Assembly (NCBI GenBank): GCA_003152255.1
Contig: PLZT01000031.1
Location: forward strand, 1 to 6,174
Direction: 5' to 3'
Source: Methylocystaceae bacterium
GTDB lineage: Bacteria > Pseudomonadota > Alphaproteobacteria > Rhizobiales > Beijerinckiaceae
Length of the DNA stretch: 6,174 nucleotides
The notes below the pieces were generated by a model. The model did not search any database, had not been told where the DNA came from, and saw nothing but the letters and a program-made list of their open reading frames with translations. Positions within the stretch are counted from its first letter, which is position 1, and each line of letters begins with the position of its first letter. Shown here one piece after another: positions 78 through 5,222 of this stretch. A program made the translations under genes and the position numbers.

Positions 78-546
78 TCAGCCGGAGATCGTATGAGGCT
101 CTTTTCGGCGCCGCGCCTTGGATTGCTTGAGGCGATAGCTTTCGCCGTTCATCTCGAGGATATGGACATGATGGGTGAGGCGATCGGGCCGCGCGCCGGT
201 CAGACGCTGGTTGCCGAACATGGCAGTATGACACCCATCCTCGGATGGGTCGGATGCCTGATCACGGTCACCGATTCCAGGCGTTCGCTTTTTGGTCAAC
301 AGTTTGCAGTTTTGTCGGAACGTTCGGGGCGGGGTCCCGCCTTTGTGGTTGTCGAATTGCCTGATGGACGCAGGCGTTCGATCCGGATTGGGAGAGCGGC
401 GCATAGCCGAGTTCGTCGACGATGAGCAGCTCGACGGCAGCGAGCTGCGCCTGGAGCCTGAGCAAGCGCTTTTCGTCGCGCGCCTCCATCAACTGATAAA
501 CGAGCCCCGCCGCCGCGGTGAAATCGAGCCCGTTCCTGACGAATAA
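78..546 (-). pseudogene. istB: IS21-family istB (transposition helper ATPase) remnant, frameshifted
   Basis: IstB is the AAA+ ATPase that assists the IstA transposase of IS21-family elements. On the minus strand, from about 546 to 388, the frame reads RNGLDFTAAAGLVYQLMEAR and then LLIVDELGYAPLS, which is the Walker B region of IstB. Homology then breaks. It resumes in another frame from about 221 to 78 with FGNQRLTGARPDRLTHH and HILEMNGESYRLKQSKARRR, the typical IstB C-terminus, followed by a stop. The Walker A motif and everything N-terminal to it are absent, and no istA is visible. The gap between the two conserved blocks is about 169 nt, where intact family members have roughly 110 nt, so about 58 extra bases and a frame change interrupt the gene. 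It is clearly a non-functional fragment. Bases 1-77 would be the downstream flank of the element; no IS end could be recognised there. Confidence 0.85.
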
Positions 547-919: not shown

Positions 920-3900
920 TCAAAGCCCCCATCTGCGTATGAACCAGACTTTCACGACATGCGTGAGGATTGCGTATGTCAGCAGCATGGCCGTAACCAA
1001 CGGCCAGTAGAGCGTGGGCAGCGGCGTGAACCCGAGCACCGAGCCCGCCCAAGTGTATGGCAGCGCGATCCCGACCGCGCAGATGATGACAGTCGTCGTG
1101 ATGAGGGCGTTGCTCGCGCGGCTCTCTAAAAATGGAATCCTCGCTGTCCTGATGATGTGGATTATCAGCGTTTGCGTCAGAAGAGACTCGACAAACCATC
1201 CGGTTTGGAACAGTGAAGGATTGCTCCAGGCATTGAAGACATACAACATCATGCCATAGGTGGCGTAGTCGAAGATGGAGCTGATTGGCCCGATAAAAAT
1301 CATGAATTTGAATATATTGCTGATGTCCCACTTTCTCGGTGACACCACGTATTCTTCATCAACGTTATCGGTTGGAATCGTTGTTTGTGAGAAGTCATAG
1401 AGCAGATTGTTCGTCAGGACCTGGATTGGCGCCATCGGCAGAAAGGGTAGAAAAATGCTGGCGCCGAGCACGCTGAACATGTTGCCGAAATTCGAGCTGG
1501 CGCCCATTTTGATGTATTTTGTAATATTCGCGAATATTCTGCGGCCTTCTATAACTCCCTCGTCAAGGACGAGAAGATTTTTTTCGAGCAGGATGATGTC
1601 GGCGGTTTCCTTGGCGATGTCGACGGCGGTGTCGACCGAGATTCCCACATCCGCAACCTTCAAAGCCGGGCCGTCGTTGATGCCGTCGCCGAGATAGCCA
1701 ACGACGTGCCCCTTGCGGTGCAGCGCCTCGATGACTTTGGCTTTCTGCGGCGGCGACAATTTCGCGAAGACGACCGTGATCGAGGCGAGCTCCGAGAGAG
1801 CGTCGTCGCTCATATGCTCGATCTCGGGTCCAAGCACGATGCGATCCACCTTCAGGCCGACGTCCTTGCATATTTTGCGCGTCACGATTTCATTGTCGCC
1901 AGTAAGGATTTTGACGGAGACGCCCGCCTTGGCGAGATCCGCGATAGCTTCCGCGGCGCTGTCCTTCGGTGGATCGAGAAAGGCGATATAGCCGAGTAGC
2001 GTCAAATCACTCTCGTCAGCGACGGTATAGGCGATTTGCTCCGGAGGCATCTCCTTGTAAGCGACGGCGACTACGCGGAAACCATCGGCGTTGAGTTCGG
2101 CGGTTTCACGTTTGGCGGTTTCGAGGTGAGAAGGGTCGAGGCGCCCGCACTCGTTTTCCGTTTCGTAATGGGTTGAGATTGAGAACAGCTCCTCCACCGC
2201 GCCCTTGCAGATCAGAAGATGCCGCCCGTCATCGCGTCGGACGAGGACCGATAATCGTCTACGGTTGAAATCAAATGGAATTTCGTCAATTTTCGTGAAC
2301 TGATGGTCTGGGCGCAGCGTGCTCGCCAATTCGTGGTGTTCGAGAACCGCGACATCGAGAAGATTCTTGAGGCCCGATTGGAAATGGCTGTTCAGATAAG
2401 CGTATTCGAGAACGCGATCCGAGTCTTCTCCATATATGTCGAGGTGCCGCTTCAAAATAATCCGATCTTGTGTTAACGTGCCGGTCTTATCCGTGCATAG
2501 AACATCCATGGCGCCGAAGTTCTGGATAGCGTTGAGCCGCTTCACGATCACCTTTTTGCGCGACATGGCGATCGCGCCTTTGGCAAGGTTCACTGTCACG
2601 ATCATTGGCAGCATCTCTGGCGTCAGTCCCACGGCCACCGCCACCGCGAAGAGCAACGCCTCCAGCCAGTCGTGCTTTGTTAGGCCATTGATGAGGAAAA
2701 CCGTTGGCACCATCACCAGAATGAAGCGGATCATCAGCCAGGTGAATCTGTTGACGCCCTGATCGAAGGCGGTCGGCACGCGTCGCCCGGCGATCTGGCG
2801 AGCAAGCTGGCCAAAAAACGTTTTCGGGCCAGTCCGAAGGATCACACCCGTGCCGTAGCCCGAGACGACGTTCGCGCCCATGAAACAGATATTCGGCAGG
2901 TCGAGCGGATCATCGCAGTCACCATCGCGCGCGTGCGCATATTTCTCGGCGGGCATGGCTTCGCCGGTTAGCGTTGACTGGTTGATGAACAGATCCTTGG
3001 CTTCGAGCAGGCGGAGTTCGGCCGGAATTATGTCGCCTGCGGAAAGTCGGACGATATCTCCCGGCACGAGTTGTTCGATTGGGATTTCAGAACATGGATT
3101 GTCCGCATCACATGGGGTGCGTCTGACGCTCGCCGTTGTATGCACCATGGCGCGCAGTTTGGCGGCCGCCTCGTTGGATTTATGCTCCTGTATAAAGGCG
3201 GTTGTAATCGCAAGGACCACCATCGAGGTGATGACGACGGCGGCGCGGACGTCCCCCGAAAAATAAGAAACGGTCGCCAAGGAGAGCAGCAGGGCGTTCA
3301 GCGGATTACGGGCGCGGCTCCATAGTTCTCGCAGGATGGGCACCTTGGTTTCGCTTGCGATGAGATTGAGTCCGAATTTCTCTAGGCGCGCGTCGGCCTC
3401 CATTTGAGACAGGCCTTCGAGACTTGTTCCCGCCTTAGAGCAGGCTTCGCCAGGCTGTAGCCGACTGACCTCCGCGAGATAACCGTCGCGGGCGCGGGCA
3501 TGTTGTTCGGTCCCGGAGAGACGAGGCTCGTCCATCGGCTTCGAGCGGAAGTTTATAAATATTATTGCAAATAATCCGATCAAAGCAACGAGCGCTAGAA
3601 GCACAAGCAACATTGGACTTACCACGATCGCAGGCGCGATCGCGGGCGCGGAGGCGGCCGCCGGAGCCGCCGCGGTCGGAGGCGCGGCGCTATTGGTGAT
3701 GAGCTCACTAACTTCGTCGAGGAGGTCTTTCGCTGTAGCGAGCTGTGGTTCGAGTCTTAACGCGGCTTCGAGGTCTTGTTTAGTGTGGTCGAGATCATGT
3801 TTGCCGCGATAAGCGTTGGCCCGGCTGAGGAAGGCGTTCGCATCGTTGGGATTGAACCGGATCGCCTCGTCGTAATCGGCGATGGCGCGATCGAAATCGT

Positions 3901-4366
3901 TCTTCGCCCGATAGGCCTCGCCCCGGCCATAGAACGCCGCTGGAGATTGGGATTGCCCCGAGATTGCGGCGTCATAATCCGCGATGGCGCGGTCGAACTC
4001 GCCCTTTGCATGGTAGATCGACGCGCGTTCCATGAGCGCTCGCGCCGACTTCGGATAGAGTTTTAGCGCCTTGTCGAGATCAGCGAGGGCGCGATCAAAA
4101 TCGCCTTTTGCCCGATAGGCGGCGCCCCGATTCATGTAGGCCGTAATCTGATTGCTCTTGGTTTCCCGCCTCCCACGCTCGATGAGCCGCGAGCAACTTA
4201 CGATCCGTGCGTCGAGGTTCGCGCCGCGACACCCCATCCAGAAATCTTCCTTGGCAAAAGCCGCCGAGCTGAGCGAAGCGCAGCCGAAAGCTGCAAGCTC
4301 GAAACAAACGACAAGGGAAAACAAGCTGGACTTGGCGAGAGAGCGATAAATCGAATGACGCACCAT
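920..4366 (-). CDS. mgtA: Magnesium-translocating P-type ATPase (MgtA type, P3B) with N-terminal periplasmic TPR domain
   Basis: The product imports Mg2+ into the cytoplasm at the cost of ATP. Of 1148 residues, about 280-1148 form a full MgtA pump: actuator TGE 467-469, M4 signature TPEMLP 582-587, phosphorylation motif DKTGT with D626, nucleotide-binding KGA 721-723, DPP 798-800, TGDN 822-825, GDGINDGP 893-900, and the Mg2+-ATPase signature NLLYDFSQ 987-994. About ten pump helices are visible. Residues 1-38 look like a signal sequence (AFA 36-38 is a possible cleavage site; C29 sits in a poor lipobox). C46 and C58 could pair. Four 34-residue TPRs span about 74-209, an Ala/Pro-rich linker 226-247, and an extra helix 250-273 followed by FRSK. 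E. coli MgtA is about 900 residues, so the first 275 or so are additional. The start at 4366 has a GGGAG site 7 nt upstream. It stands alone; nothing readable suggests an operon. The pump assignment is near certain; the role of the TPR part is inference. Confidence 0.96.
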   Translation of the reverse strand: MVRHSIYRSLAKSSLFSLVVCFELAAFGCASLSSAAFAKEDFWMGCRGANLDARIVSCSRLIERGRRETKSNQITAYMNRGAAYRAKGDFDRALADLDKALKLYPKSARALMERASIYHAKGEFDRAIADYDAAISGQSQSPAAFYGRGEAYRAKNDFDRAIADYDEAIRFNPNDANAFLSRANAYRGKHDLDHTKQDLEAALRLEPQLATAKDLLDEVSELITNSAAPPTAAAPAAASAPAIAPAIVVSPMLLVLLALVALIGLFAIIFINFRSKPMDEPRLSGTEQHARARDGYLAEVSRLQPGEACSKAGTSLEGLSQMEADARLEKFGLNLIASETKVPILRELWSRARNPLNALLLSLATVSYFSGDVRAAVVITSMVVLAITTAFIQEHKSNEAAAKLRAMVHTTASVRRTPCDADNPCSEIPIEQLVPGDIVRLSAGDIIPAELRLLEAKDLFINQSTLTGEAMPAEKYAHARDGDCDDPLDLPNICFMGANVVSGYGTGVILRTGPKTFFGQLARQIAGRRVPTAFDQGVNRFTWLMIRFILVMVPTVFLINGLTKHDWLEALLFAVAVAVGLTPEMLPMIVTVNLAKGAIAMSRKKVIVKRLNAIQNFGAMDVLCTDKTGTLTQDRIILKRHLDIYGEDSDRVLEYAYLNSHFQSGLKNLLDVAVLEHHELASTLRPDHQFTKIDEIPFDFNRRRLSVLVRRDDGRHLLICKGAVEELFSISTHYETENECGRLDPSHLETAKRETAELNADGFRVVAVAYKEMPPEQIAYTVADESDLTLLGYIAFLDPPKDSAAEAIADLAKAGVSVKILTGDNEIVTRKICKDVGLKVDRIVLGPEIEHMSDDALSELASITVVFAKLSPPQKAKVIEALHRKGHVVGYLGDGINDGPALKVADVGISVDTAVDIAKETADIILLEKNLLVLDEGVIEGRRIFANITKYIKMGASSNFGNMFSVLGASIFLPFLPMAPIQVLTNNLLYDFSQTTIPTDNVDEEYVVSPRKWDISNIFKFMIFIGPISSIFDYATYGMMLYVFNAWSNPSLFQTGWFVESLLTQTLIIHIIRTARIPFLESRASNALITTTVIICAVGIALPYTWAGSVLGFTPLPTLYWPLVTAMLLTYAILTHVVKVWFIRRWGL

Positions 4367-4439: not shown

Positions 4440-4797
4440 CGACGGCTCCTCACCCATTCTCTCCGGTAAGTTCAGCCCGGTGCGCAGTTCACGCAATTGC
4501 TCCTGGCTCGCGGGGGACGACGCCTGTATGGAAAATTCGCTGGGAGGCAGGCGCCGAGGGCCCGACGATTGCGTAACGGTCGCACATAGGCCTCACGCAC
4601 CAGCAACGTTGCAAGCCCTGGCCCGATACGCTGCAAGCGAGCGGGCGCAAGGATCATGTTTTCGACCTCATTCGCGGGCGCGGCCTTCGTCAGCACTTCG
4701 TCTCGAGCCGCTTCAACCGCTTTGATTTGTCTCAAAACAAGTTCGAGCCAATCAAGAAGACGTTCGATCCGGACCAGAGCGGTTTGCGGGATGGAGC
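4440..4797 (-). pseudogene. IS110-family transposase remnant (C-terminal part)
   Basis: IS110 transposases are DEDD-type recombinases with a C-terminal Transposase_20 domain. The minus-strand frame from about 4797 reads IPQTALVRIERLLDWLELVL, then KAVEAARDEVL, then LQRIGPGLATLLVREAYVRP and LRNRRALGACL. This matches the coiled region and the helix-hairpin-helix-like 'IPGVGP...T...L..E' block of the C-terminal domain. After ACL the homology moves to another frame, which reads HTGVVPREPGAIA and corresponds to the family's SG...REQGISKAGN stretch, followed by a stop. So there is at least one frameshift, and the N-terminal RuvC-like catalytic domain is absent. The remnant ends shortly before the upstream region of the ATPase gene and may supply part of its 5' flank. 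It is non-functional. Confidence 0.75.
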
Positions 4798-4988
4798 GTC
4801 ATTAGGCTGATGCAATTTGGACAGCCGCTTTTTAGCAAGGCGTTTCGCCGCAACTCCCTTCTGATCGTCCCTTTGTCTTTGTCGCGACCGATCATGCGGC
4901 CAATTTCCGAGCGAGATATTCGCGCTAAACGCAGACGGAATATCTGGCGCCGCTCACTCTCCGTGAGCTCCCCGTATCTTGTTCCCAT
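4752..4988 (-). pseudogene. IS30-family transposase remnant (N-terminal HTH)
   Basis: From an ATG at 4988 the minus strand encodes MGTRYGELTESERRQIFRLR, then SRSEIGRMIGRDK and GTIRRELRRNA. This is the N-terminal helix-turn-helix domain (HTH_38 type) of IS30-family transposases, which normally exceed 300 residues and carry a DDE catalytic core. Here the frame ends after 78 codons, and homology stops around residue 55. The rest (NCISLMTLHPANRSG) overlaps the neighbouring IS110 remnant in a different frame. An AGGGG ribosome binding site lies 7 nt upstream (5000-4996). The HTH carries a 6-bp tandem duplication (DKDK in place of the usual single DK). The catalytic domain is missing, so it cannot transpose. 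A short DNA-binding peptide could in theory still be made. Confidence 0.82.
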
Positions 4989-4995
4989 GGCAGCG

Positions 4996-5000
4996 CCCCT
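4996..5000 (-). promoter_or_regulatory. Ribosome binding site of the IS30 transposase remnant
   Basis: AGGGG on the minus strand sits seven bases before the ATG at 4988. It fixes the start at MGTRYGEL rather than at the more distant in-frame start at 5156, whose added residues show no similarity to the family. Confidence 0.5.
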
Positions 5001-5101
5001 GTAGGGCGTTGCACTTGGCTTGTGAATCCATCGGGATTGAGTGTGACATGAAAGGTTCACAATATATTCGCAATCATGTGTAGCAATGATACAGTCAATA
5101 T

Positions 5102-5120
5102 TTTGATACGACTTATCAAA
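5102..5120. repeat. 19-bp inverted repeat (7-5-7), possible operator
   Basis: TTTGATA-CGACT-TATCAAA is a perfect 7-bp dyad around a 5-bp spacer, in non-coding DNA 116 bp upstream of the plus-strand gene at 5236. The half-sites resemble TTGAT/ATCAA of FNR/FixK sites. Those sites have a 4-bp spacer between the 5-bp arms and this one has 7, so an FNR-type assignment does not fit. It could be an operator for another dimeric regulator or part of an old IS flank. Confidence 0.4.
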
Positions 5121-5222
5121 CCAAGTGACTGTTGCAACGCAGCAAAAAAACGGCAAGGTTTTAAAATTCGTCGCGACTTCACTTCAATGACTAAAGCGCA
5201 GCAAGTTGTCGTGTGCTGGTGT

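Follow-up and report, generated by a model that had tools for sequence, protein, structure and literature searches.

The window analysed here, i.e. the whole 6,174-nucleotide stretch of contig PLZT01000031.1 from a Methylocystaceae bacterium, contains on its minus strand (4366 to 920) a single unbroken reading frame of 1148 codons plus stop, as read from its open reading frames, in which a tetratricopeptide repeat (TPR) module precedes an MgtA-type Mg2+ pump. Read on the plus strand, positions 920–4366 contain 21 stops. An earlier note on this DNA had described one intact frame linking four exact 34-residue TPRs (residues 74–209) to a P3B ATPase, and this description holds, the strand being minus. 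The side of the membrane on which the TPRs lie is decided by two further elements that the note did not mention, a signal peptide and an extra transmembrane helix. The features of the gene are as follows.

920..4366, minus strand: whole fusion gene, 1148 codons plus stop
4250..4366, minus strand: signal peptide, residues 1–39, with an AxA-type site before KED (sequence; hydrophobic stretch 14–32)
4148..4249, minus strand: cap, residues 40–73, with Cys46 and Cys58 (alignments; modelled helix 51–63)
4046..4147, minus strand: TPR 1, residues 74–107 (Pfam, repeat reading, two modelled helices)
3944..4045, minus strand: TPR 2, residues 108–141 (repeat reading, model)
3842..3943, minus strand: TPR 3, residues 142–175 (repeat reading, model)
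3740..3841, minus strand: TPR 4, residues 176–209 (repeat reading, model)
3617..3739, minus strand: closing helix 210–227 and Ala/Pro-rich linker 228–250 (model; predicted local distance difference test, pLDDT, below 50 for residues 228–255)
3548..3616, minus strand: extra transmembrane helix, residues 251–273, then the positively charged stretch FRSKP (hydropathy 3.35 over 253–271; low-confidence modelled helix)
923..3487, minus strand: P3B (MgtA-type) ATPase, residues 294–1148 (Pfam, TIGR01524, 8uy7 alignment)
2957..2968, minus strand: TGEA replacing TGES, residues 467–470 (motif reading)
2477..2491, minus strand: phosphorylation motif DKTGT, Asp626 (motif reading)

The four TPRs are tandem, exact 34-residue helix-turn-helix units and score 92.1 bits against Pfam TPR_1 (cut-off 27.8). 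The domain behind them appears to be an entire Mg2+ P-type ATPase of the P3B class, judging from a match of residues 299–1147 to TIGR01524 (Mg P-type ATPase; 1172.2 bits, cut-off 610.75) and an alignment of residues 311–1147 with the solved MgtA chain 8uy7 (957.8 bits). It resembles MgtA/MgtB (TIGR01524; PDB 8uy7, 9byb) throughout the pump domain, including the catalytic Asp and the PEMLP and SSNFGN membrane motifs. The fusion departs from these pumps in two respects: the short cytosolic tail has largely given way to signal peptide, cap, TPRs, linker and extra helix, and TGES to TGEA. Of the catalytic motifs that the note called intact, DKTGT, KGA, TGD and GDGIND are present, with this one correction at the dephosphorylation motif.

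In this loop the catalytic Glu is kept and the Ser lost in all 24 fused proteins and at 4 of 4 loci; PMC10925321 names the Glu as the residue responsible for dephosphorylation in E. coli MgtA and describes the Ser as less well conserved. Seventeen unfused Methylocystis genes (61–70% identity) read TGES (14), TGEG (one) or TGEA (one), with no TGE found in the remaining one. Two of the unfused MgtA-type genes, both at 62–69% identity, stand apart: no TGES loop was found in L158, and L159 reads TGEA like the fusions, by which TGEA is ruled out as a mark exclusive to fused pumps.

Recurrence of the fusion

A protein database search was run with residues 1–400 of the window protein, and the best 120 of its 1520 matches were examined. 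Alignment A2 comprises the window protein and 23 further TPR–MgtA fusions that are 69–97% identical to it, and the fusion occurs also in the finished Methylocystis rosea plasmid pGW6_1 and in a two-contig genome (G216). A frameshift or misassembly is ruled out by this presence in several assemblies. The earlier note would have given up its reading for a stop between the TPR part and the pump, or for homologues in which these are always two genes; neither occurred, and fused homologues stand in several assemblies.

On pGW6_1 the fusion is one open frame of 1288 amino acids (aa) counted from the first ATG (L009 12001–15867). RefSeq places the mgtA start later (876 aa), so that the whole TPR module is lost from the annotation. 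Annotation can hide such fusions, and records elsewhere may conceal them likewise.

MgtA-type genes, taken as matches at an E value of 1e-120, number 38 in 25 of the 39 Methylocystis genomes, and all 38 frames were read. Four of them (in G001, G216, G278 and G090) bear the module and are 83–97% identical to the window's pump; the other 34 do not, and all of these are at most 70% identical. Unfused MgtA is the usual form, and G001 has unfused relatives (61–64% and 48% identity) besides its fusion. Methylocystis also has a second unfused MgtA-type subfamily, 48–49% identical, with TGEP for TGES (L002, L146–L149, L160–L162, L171); some of its frames have an extra hydrophobic segment at the N-terminus.

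One module on many partners

The module is not confined to MgtA. From 222 proteins and the module-bearing locus frames, a set of 129 cap-bearing sequences was compiled, non-redundant by cap and label though with near-copies remaining, of which 96 could be labelled by partner motifs; rows were picked by the two-cysteine pattern, and the two-cysteine count (96/96) is hence circular and not used as evidence. These 96 fusions have 11 labelled partner kinds, three of them P-type ATPases (MgtA, P1B and P2) and eight not: VIT1, Kef/YbaL-like and NhaD-like proteins, TerC/Alx, ATP synthase subunits a and b (F0a and F0b), cytochrome b561 and cupredoxin. Nine of the 11 are ion-translocating proteins, cupredoxin and cytochrome b561 being the exceptions.

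The partner domains of representatives were checked by Pfam and NCBIfam. Among the P1B partners, P0089 and L113 are nearest to Zn/Cd types, L011 lies above the Cu-type cut-off, and L009 and L119 are without a type assignment; the best models for the P2 partners L123 and L124 are Ca2+ ones, with L123 below their cut-offs. VIT1 partners are found in P0022 and P0152, Kef/YbaL-like antiporters in P0054 (below the YbaL cut-off), L120 and L121, NhaD-like/CitMHS_2 proteins in P0070 (by precomputed domain), L120 and P0110, and TerC/Alx in P0086 and P0092. Subunit a is the partner in L012, L118, L122, L115, L125 and P0165, subunit b in P0127, cupredoxin in L126, L128 and P0142, and cytochrome b561 with a molybdopterin oxidoreductase domain in L111 (4727–7531). 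A second protein search added further F0a, F0b and cupredoxin fusions.

Plasmid pGW6_1 alone bears four fusions, i.e. to MgtA, P1B, F0a and cupredoxin. Its F0a fusion sits in an F1F0 operon whose gene order is taken as that of an alternate (N-type) ATPase, and its cupredoxin fusion gene (L129 23155–26666) shares 4 nt with an overlapping gene for a heavy-metal P-type ATPase. By helix count, the cupredoxin of L129 would lie in the cytosol, which is unusual.

This breadth bears directly on the idea of a specific MgtA regulator, i.e. a periplasmic domain that senses or gates Mg2+ entry. The module does stand where the greater part of the N-terminal tail of MgtA (residues 1–36) would be, a tail that PMC10925321 presents as cytosolic, poorly conserved and possibly regulatory, and fused pumps uniformly read TGEA where unfused genes mostly have TGES, though TGEA is not confined to fusions. 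The very same module, however, is carried by P1B, P2, Kef-, NhaD-, TerC- and VIT1-type proteins, and we regard such a regulator as very improbable. The occurrence of the module on ten further labelled kinds, of which eight are not P-type, points instead to a generic tag.

Export and topology

By several lines of sequence evidence the module is predicted to be exported and to be exposed in the periplasm. Using lenient patterns, an AxA-like site precedes the cap in 96/96 fusions, a hydrophobic core is present in 94/96, and a lipobox-like stretch in 2/96. The module of the window protein is modelled as a block of pLDDT 70–90 at residues 41–220, and in an F0a fusion it reaches 86–97, in a whole-protein model that is good in the module only (mean 63.1). 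The AlphaFold model of the whole window fusion is poor (mean pLDDT 48, 24 rows) and uninformative on sidedness.

A second line comes from the extra helix, defined as a mean hydropathy of at least 1.6 over 19 residues between the last TPR and the partner start. Of the 96 fusions 91 were scored, five being left out because they have no anchor motif. The helix is present in all 44 fusions to MgtA (25), P1B (3), P2 (2), VIT1 (1), cupredoxin (12) and b561 (1), partners with a cytosolic N-terminus where this is known, and in none of the 47 fusions to Kef/CPA2 (10), NhaD (16), F0a (17), F0b (2) and TerC (2), partners whose N-terminus is external where known. Counted by kind and with cupredoxin and b561 omitted, this rule is one of four kinds against five, with the three P-type kinds interrelated. 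In TerC/Alx, YbaL, F0a and F0b representatives the full-length partner models begin at the partner's own residue 2–4, i.e. the module is joined ahead of the native first helix. For KefC, a published structure report (PMC11150392) places the N-terminus extracellularly. A crude positive-inside count over 94 fusions came out as more in 77, in agreement with this placement, equal in eight and fewer, in disagreement with it, in nine. According to this topology rule, the module is predicted to be periplasmic whatever its partner.

Origin and movement of the module

Methylocystis and its relatives have a stand-alone secreted TPR protein that shares signal peptide, two-cysteine cap and TPRs with the fusion module but, unlike the fusions, has neither helix nor partner. 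A module tree (112 modules, 124 columns, 48 of 108 inner branches left open) separates the 15 stand-alone modules from 97 other rows (96 fusions and one broken copy) by a branch with 100% support in the SH-like approximate likelihood ratio test (SH-aLRT). The stand-alone protein is the likely donor of the fusion modules. In five of six genomes, drawn from two genera, its gene lies close to genes read from sequence as RNase D and a bcp-type peroxiredoxin; across the six, its neighbours give no functional hint.

Partner labels change 24 times on this tree, with 11 the least possible and 73.9 in shuffles, and MgtA fusions mostly form one group (22/26). Between one cupredoxin fusion and one F0b fusion, 98% is shared over 297 aa. 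In genome G199, neighbouring Kef and NhaD fusion genes have 794 bp in common at 96.0% identity, a block that starts inside the signal-peptide coding region and stops at the linker start; in the 180 bp preceding it the two genes have no likeness. Judged from its DNA, this pair shows the module to have moved as a protein-coding cassette. Promoter exchange is ruled out for this one pair tested, since the shared block starts within the frame.

Movement of this kind might also reflect a neutral or expression-driven cassette, a convenient 5' coding segment that recombined onto many genes and is tolerated there. The surroundings are rich in mobile DNA (IS21 and IS30-like remnants; plasmid pGW6_1), and the label changes exceed the minimum. 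Against this, the shared block of the tested pair begins within the frame rather than in a promoter, the module is under purifying selection (see below), the topology rule is strict and nine of 11 labelled partner kinds are ion-translocating, all of which makes a neutral cassette improbable.

The spread of the module was followed with a profile of the cap plus first TPR (alignment A1). At an E value of 1e-10 it matches in 39/39 Methylocystis genomes, mostly via the stand-alone protein of about 320–420 aa. At 1e-28, stand-alone copies included, it matches in at least 34 of 397 family genomes and at least three of 43 genera, and in at least two of 397 order genomes, both in the window's genus; at 1e-20 it matches in at least one of 385 class genomes, the nearest one. 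These family, order and class counts are based on up to 13 scored candidates per genome. At least one fusion with an identified partner is present in 13 of the 39 Methylocystis genomes (G001, G018, G090, G204, G216, G248, G273, G278, G283, G298, G303, G318, G357) and in three genomes from two other genera (G127, G199, G213); G323, in which the frame leaves the contig after a P1B-like partner has begun, and G328, which has a broken copy, were not counted as fusions.

A portable docking tag?

We favour the view that the module is a portable periplasmic docking tag, here placed on a complete Mg2+ P-type ATPase, and give it about an even chance; docking to a common partner is the conjectural part of it. 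The signal peptide would export the module and so bring cap and TPRs into the periplasm. For a partner with a cytosolic start, the extra helix, with its C-terminus inside, would re-enter the membrane; for one that starts outside, direct joining would suffice. The cap and TPR arm could then bind to one another or to a shared partner, periplasmic or membrane-associated, by which ion-handling proteins would be held together at one place, perhaps at the intracytoplasmic membranes of these methanotrophs, with the ion chemistry of each pump taken as unchanged. The earlier idea of a built-in scaffold recruiting a periplasmic partner fits signal peptide, TPRs and C-in helix, but nothing about it is specific to Mg2+ transport or to the gating of this pump. 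Likeness of the cap across partners (mean column identity 75% in the ten chosen rows of A1), the topology rule and cassette-wise exchange together speak for one shared use on the outward-facing side of the membrane.

A number of observations weigh against a docking tag. TPR number varies, mostly from 3 to 8 by a rough count, and the ratio of nonsynonymous to synonymous substitution rates (dN/dS) is 0.24–0.55 for the TPRs versus 0.09–0.15 for the pump in three comparisons; TPRs that are less constrained than the pump and variable in number sit oddly with a fixed ligand groove. For the extra helix, one of the three comparisons gives a dN/dS of 1.0 (27 codons). In the TPR–MgtA fusion of G090 (L133) the cap is degenerate, with signal peptide, TPRs and helix retained, and 26 of the 39 Methylocystis genomes have no fusion with an identified partner. 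As to topology, the membrane side of cupredoxin, which accounts for 12 of the 44 helix-bearing fusions, and of b561 is not independently known, and the positive-inside count is no help for NhaD (7/15), TerC (1/2) and Kef (4/9 more, five equal). The sidedness used for several kinds is general background, namely an external N-terminus for NhaD, TerC, F0a and F0b and a cytosolic one for the P1B and P2 pumps, VIT1 and b561.

Variable repeat number, the degenerate G090 cap and looser selection on the TPRs leave room for a mere biogenesis or stability tag, i.e. an exported folded TPR domain and helix that aid insertion or shield from proteases with no specific partner. Such a tag would accept any N-terminus provided that the topology fits, as well as TPRs that vary in number and evolve faster than the pump. 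Yet the cap is under purifying selection (dN/dS 0.23–0.29 in three comparisons) and alike across partners, and 34 of the 38 MgtA-type genes of Methylocystis manage without the module; we therefore consider a stability tag unlikely, though worth keeping in view. Pure self-association, in which modules pair mutually or with the stand-alone TPR protein and so gather pumps without a third partner, seems to us quite unlikely; against it, TPR folds generally resemble one another. Docking of some kind, self-association included, ranks above the other readings.

In its boldest form, the docking-tag reading would turn one secreted TPR protein into a general address tag in the periplasm of type II methanotrophs and their close relatives. 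Pumps and antiporters for Mg, Zn/Cd, Cu, Ca, Fe/Mn, K and Na (substrates by family) would then dock on the same periplasmic partner, together with the membrane subunits a and b of an F1F0 ATPase, and all of them would make up a mixed ion-handling assembly at a single site in the membrane. This we put forward tentatively, as a minority possibility. If the docking tag is real, it would reveal a bacterial way of grouping ion transporters in the membrane and could be used as a ready-made, topology-aware tag.

Relation to known modules

An accessory domain is usually confined to a single transporter family or a small number of them. TrkA-N/RCK and CBS domains are promiscuous regulatory domains, cytosolic ligand sensors that are reused on different transporters; they have in common with the present module that one domain sits on many transporters, whereas the present module is predicted to lie in the periplasm and brings a helix as topology adaptor. 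The TPR scaffolds PilW/PilF and MamA resemble it in fold alone, TPRs matching one another widely, and to our knowledge they are not fused to transporters. Among the open-access PMC papers searched, none came up that describes TPR–transporter fusions of this sort. Here a single exported module serves 11 labelled kinds of protein, mostly ion transporters of the membrane, and gains a helix only where the topology requires one.

Surroundings of the fusion gene

A Mg2+ riboswitch was considered, and no Rfam match reaches the gathering score within the window. On the minus strand, window positions 268–492 carry the remains of an IS21 IstB helper (Pfam 23.0 bits, just below the cut-off of 24.1), and positions 129–219 are similar to plasmid istB DNA. 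Upstream of the fusion gene, an HTH_38 match (29.2 bits; 4752–5156, minus strand) is taken as the remnant of an IS30-like transposase N-terminus. The end of a group II intron (184.2 bits) lies near the fusion locus in L010 (103–324, minus strand).

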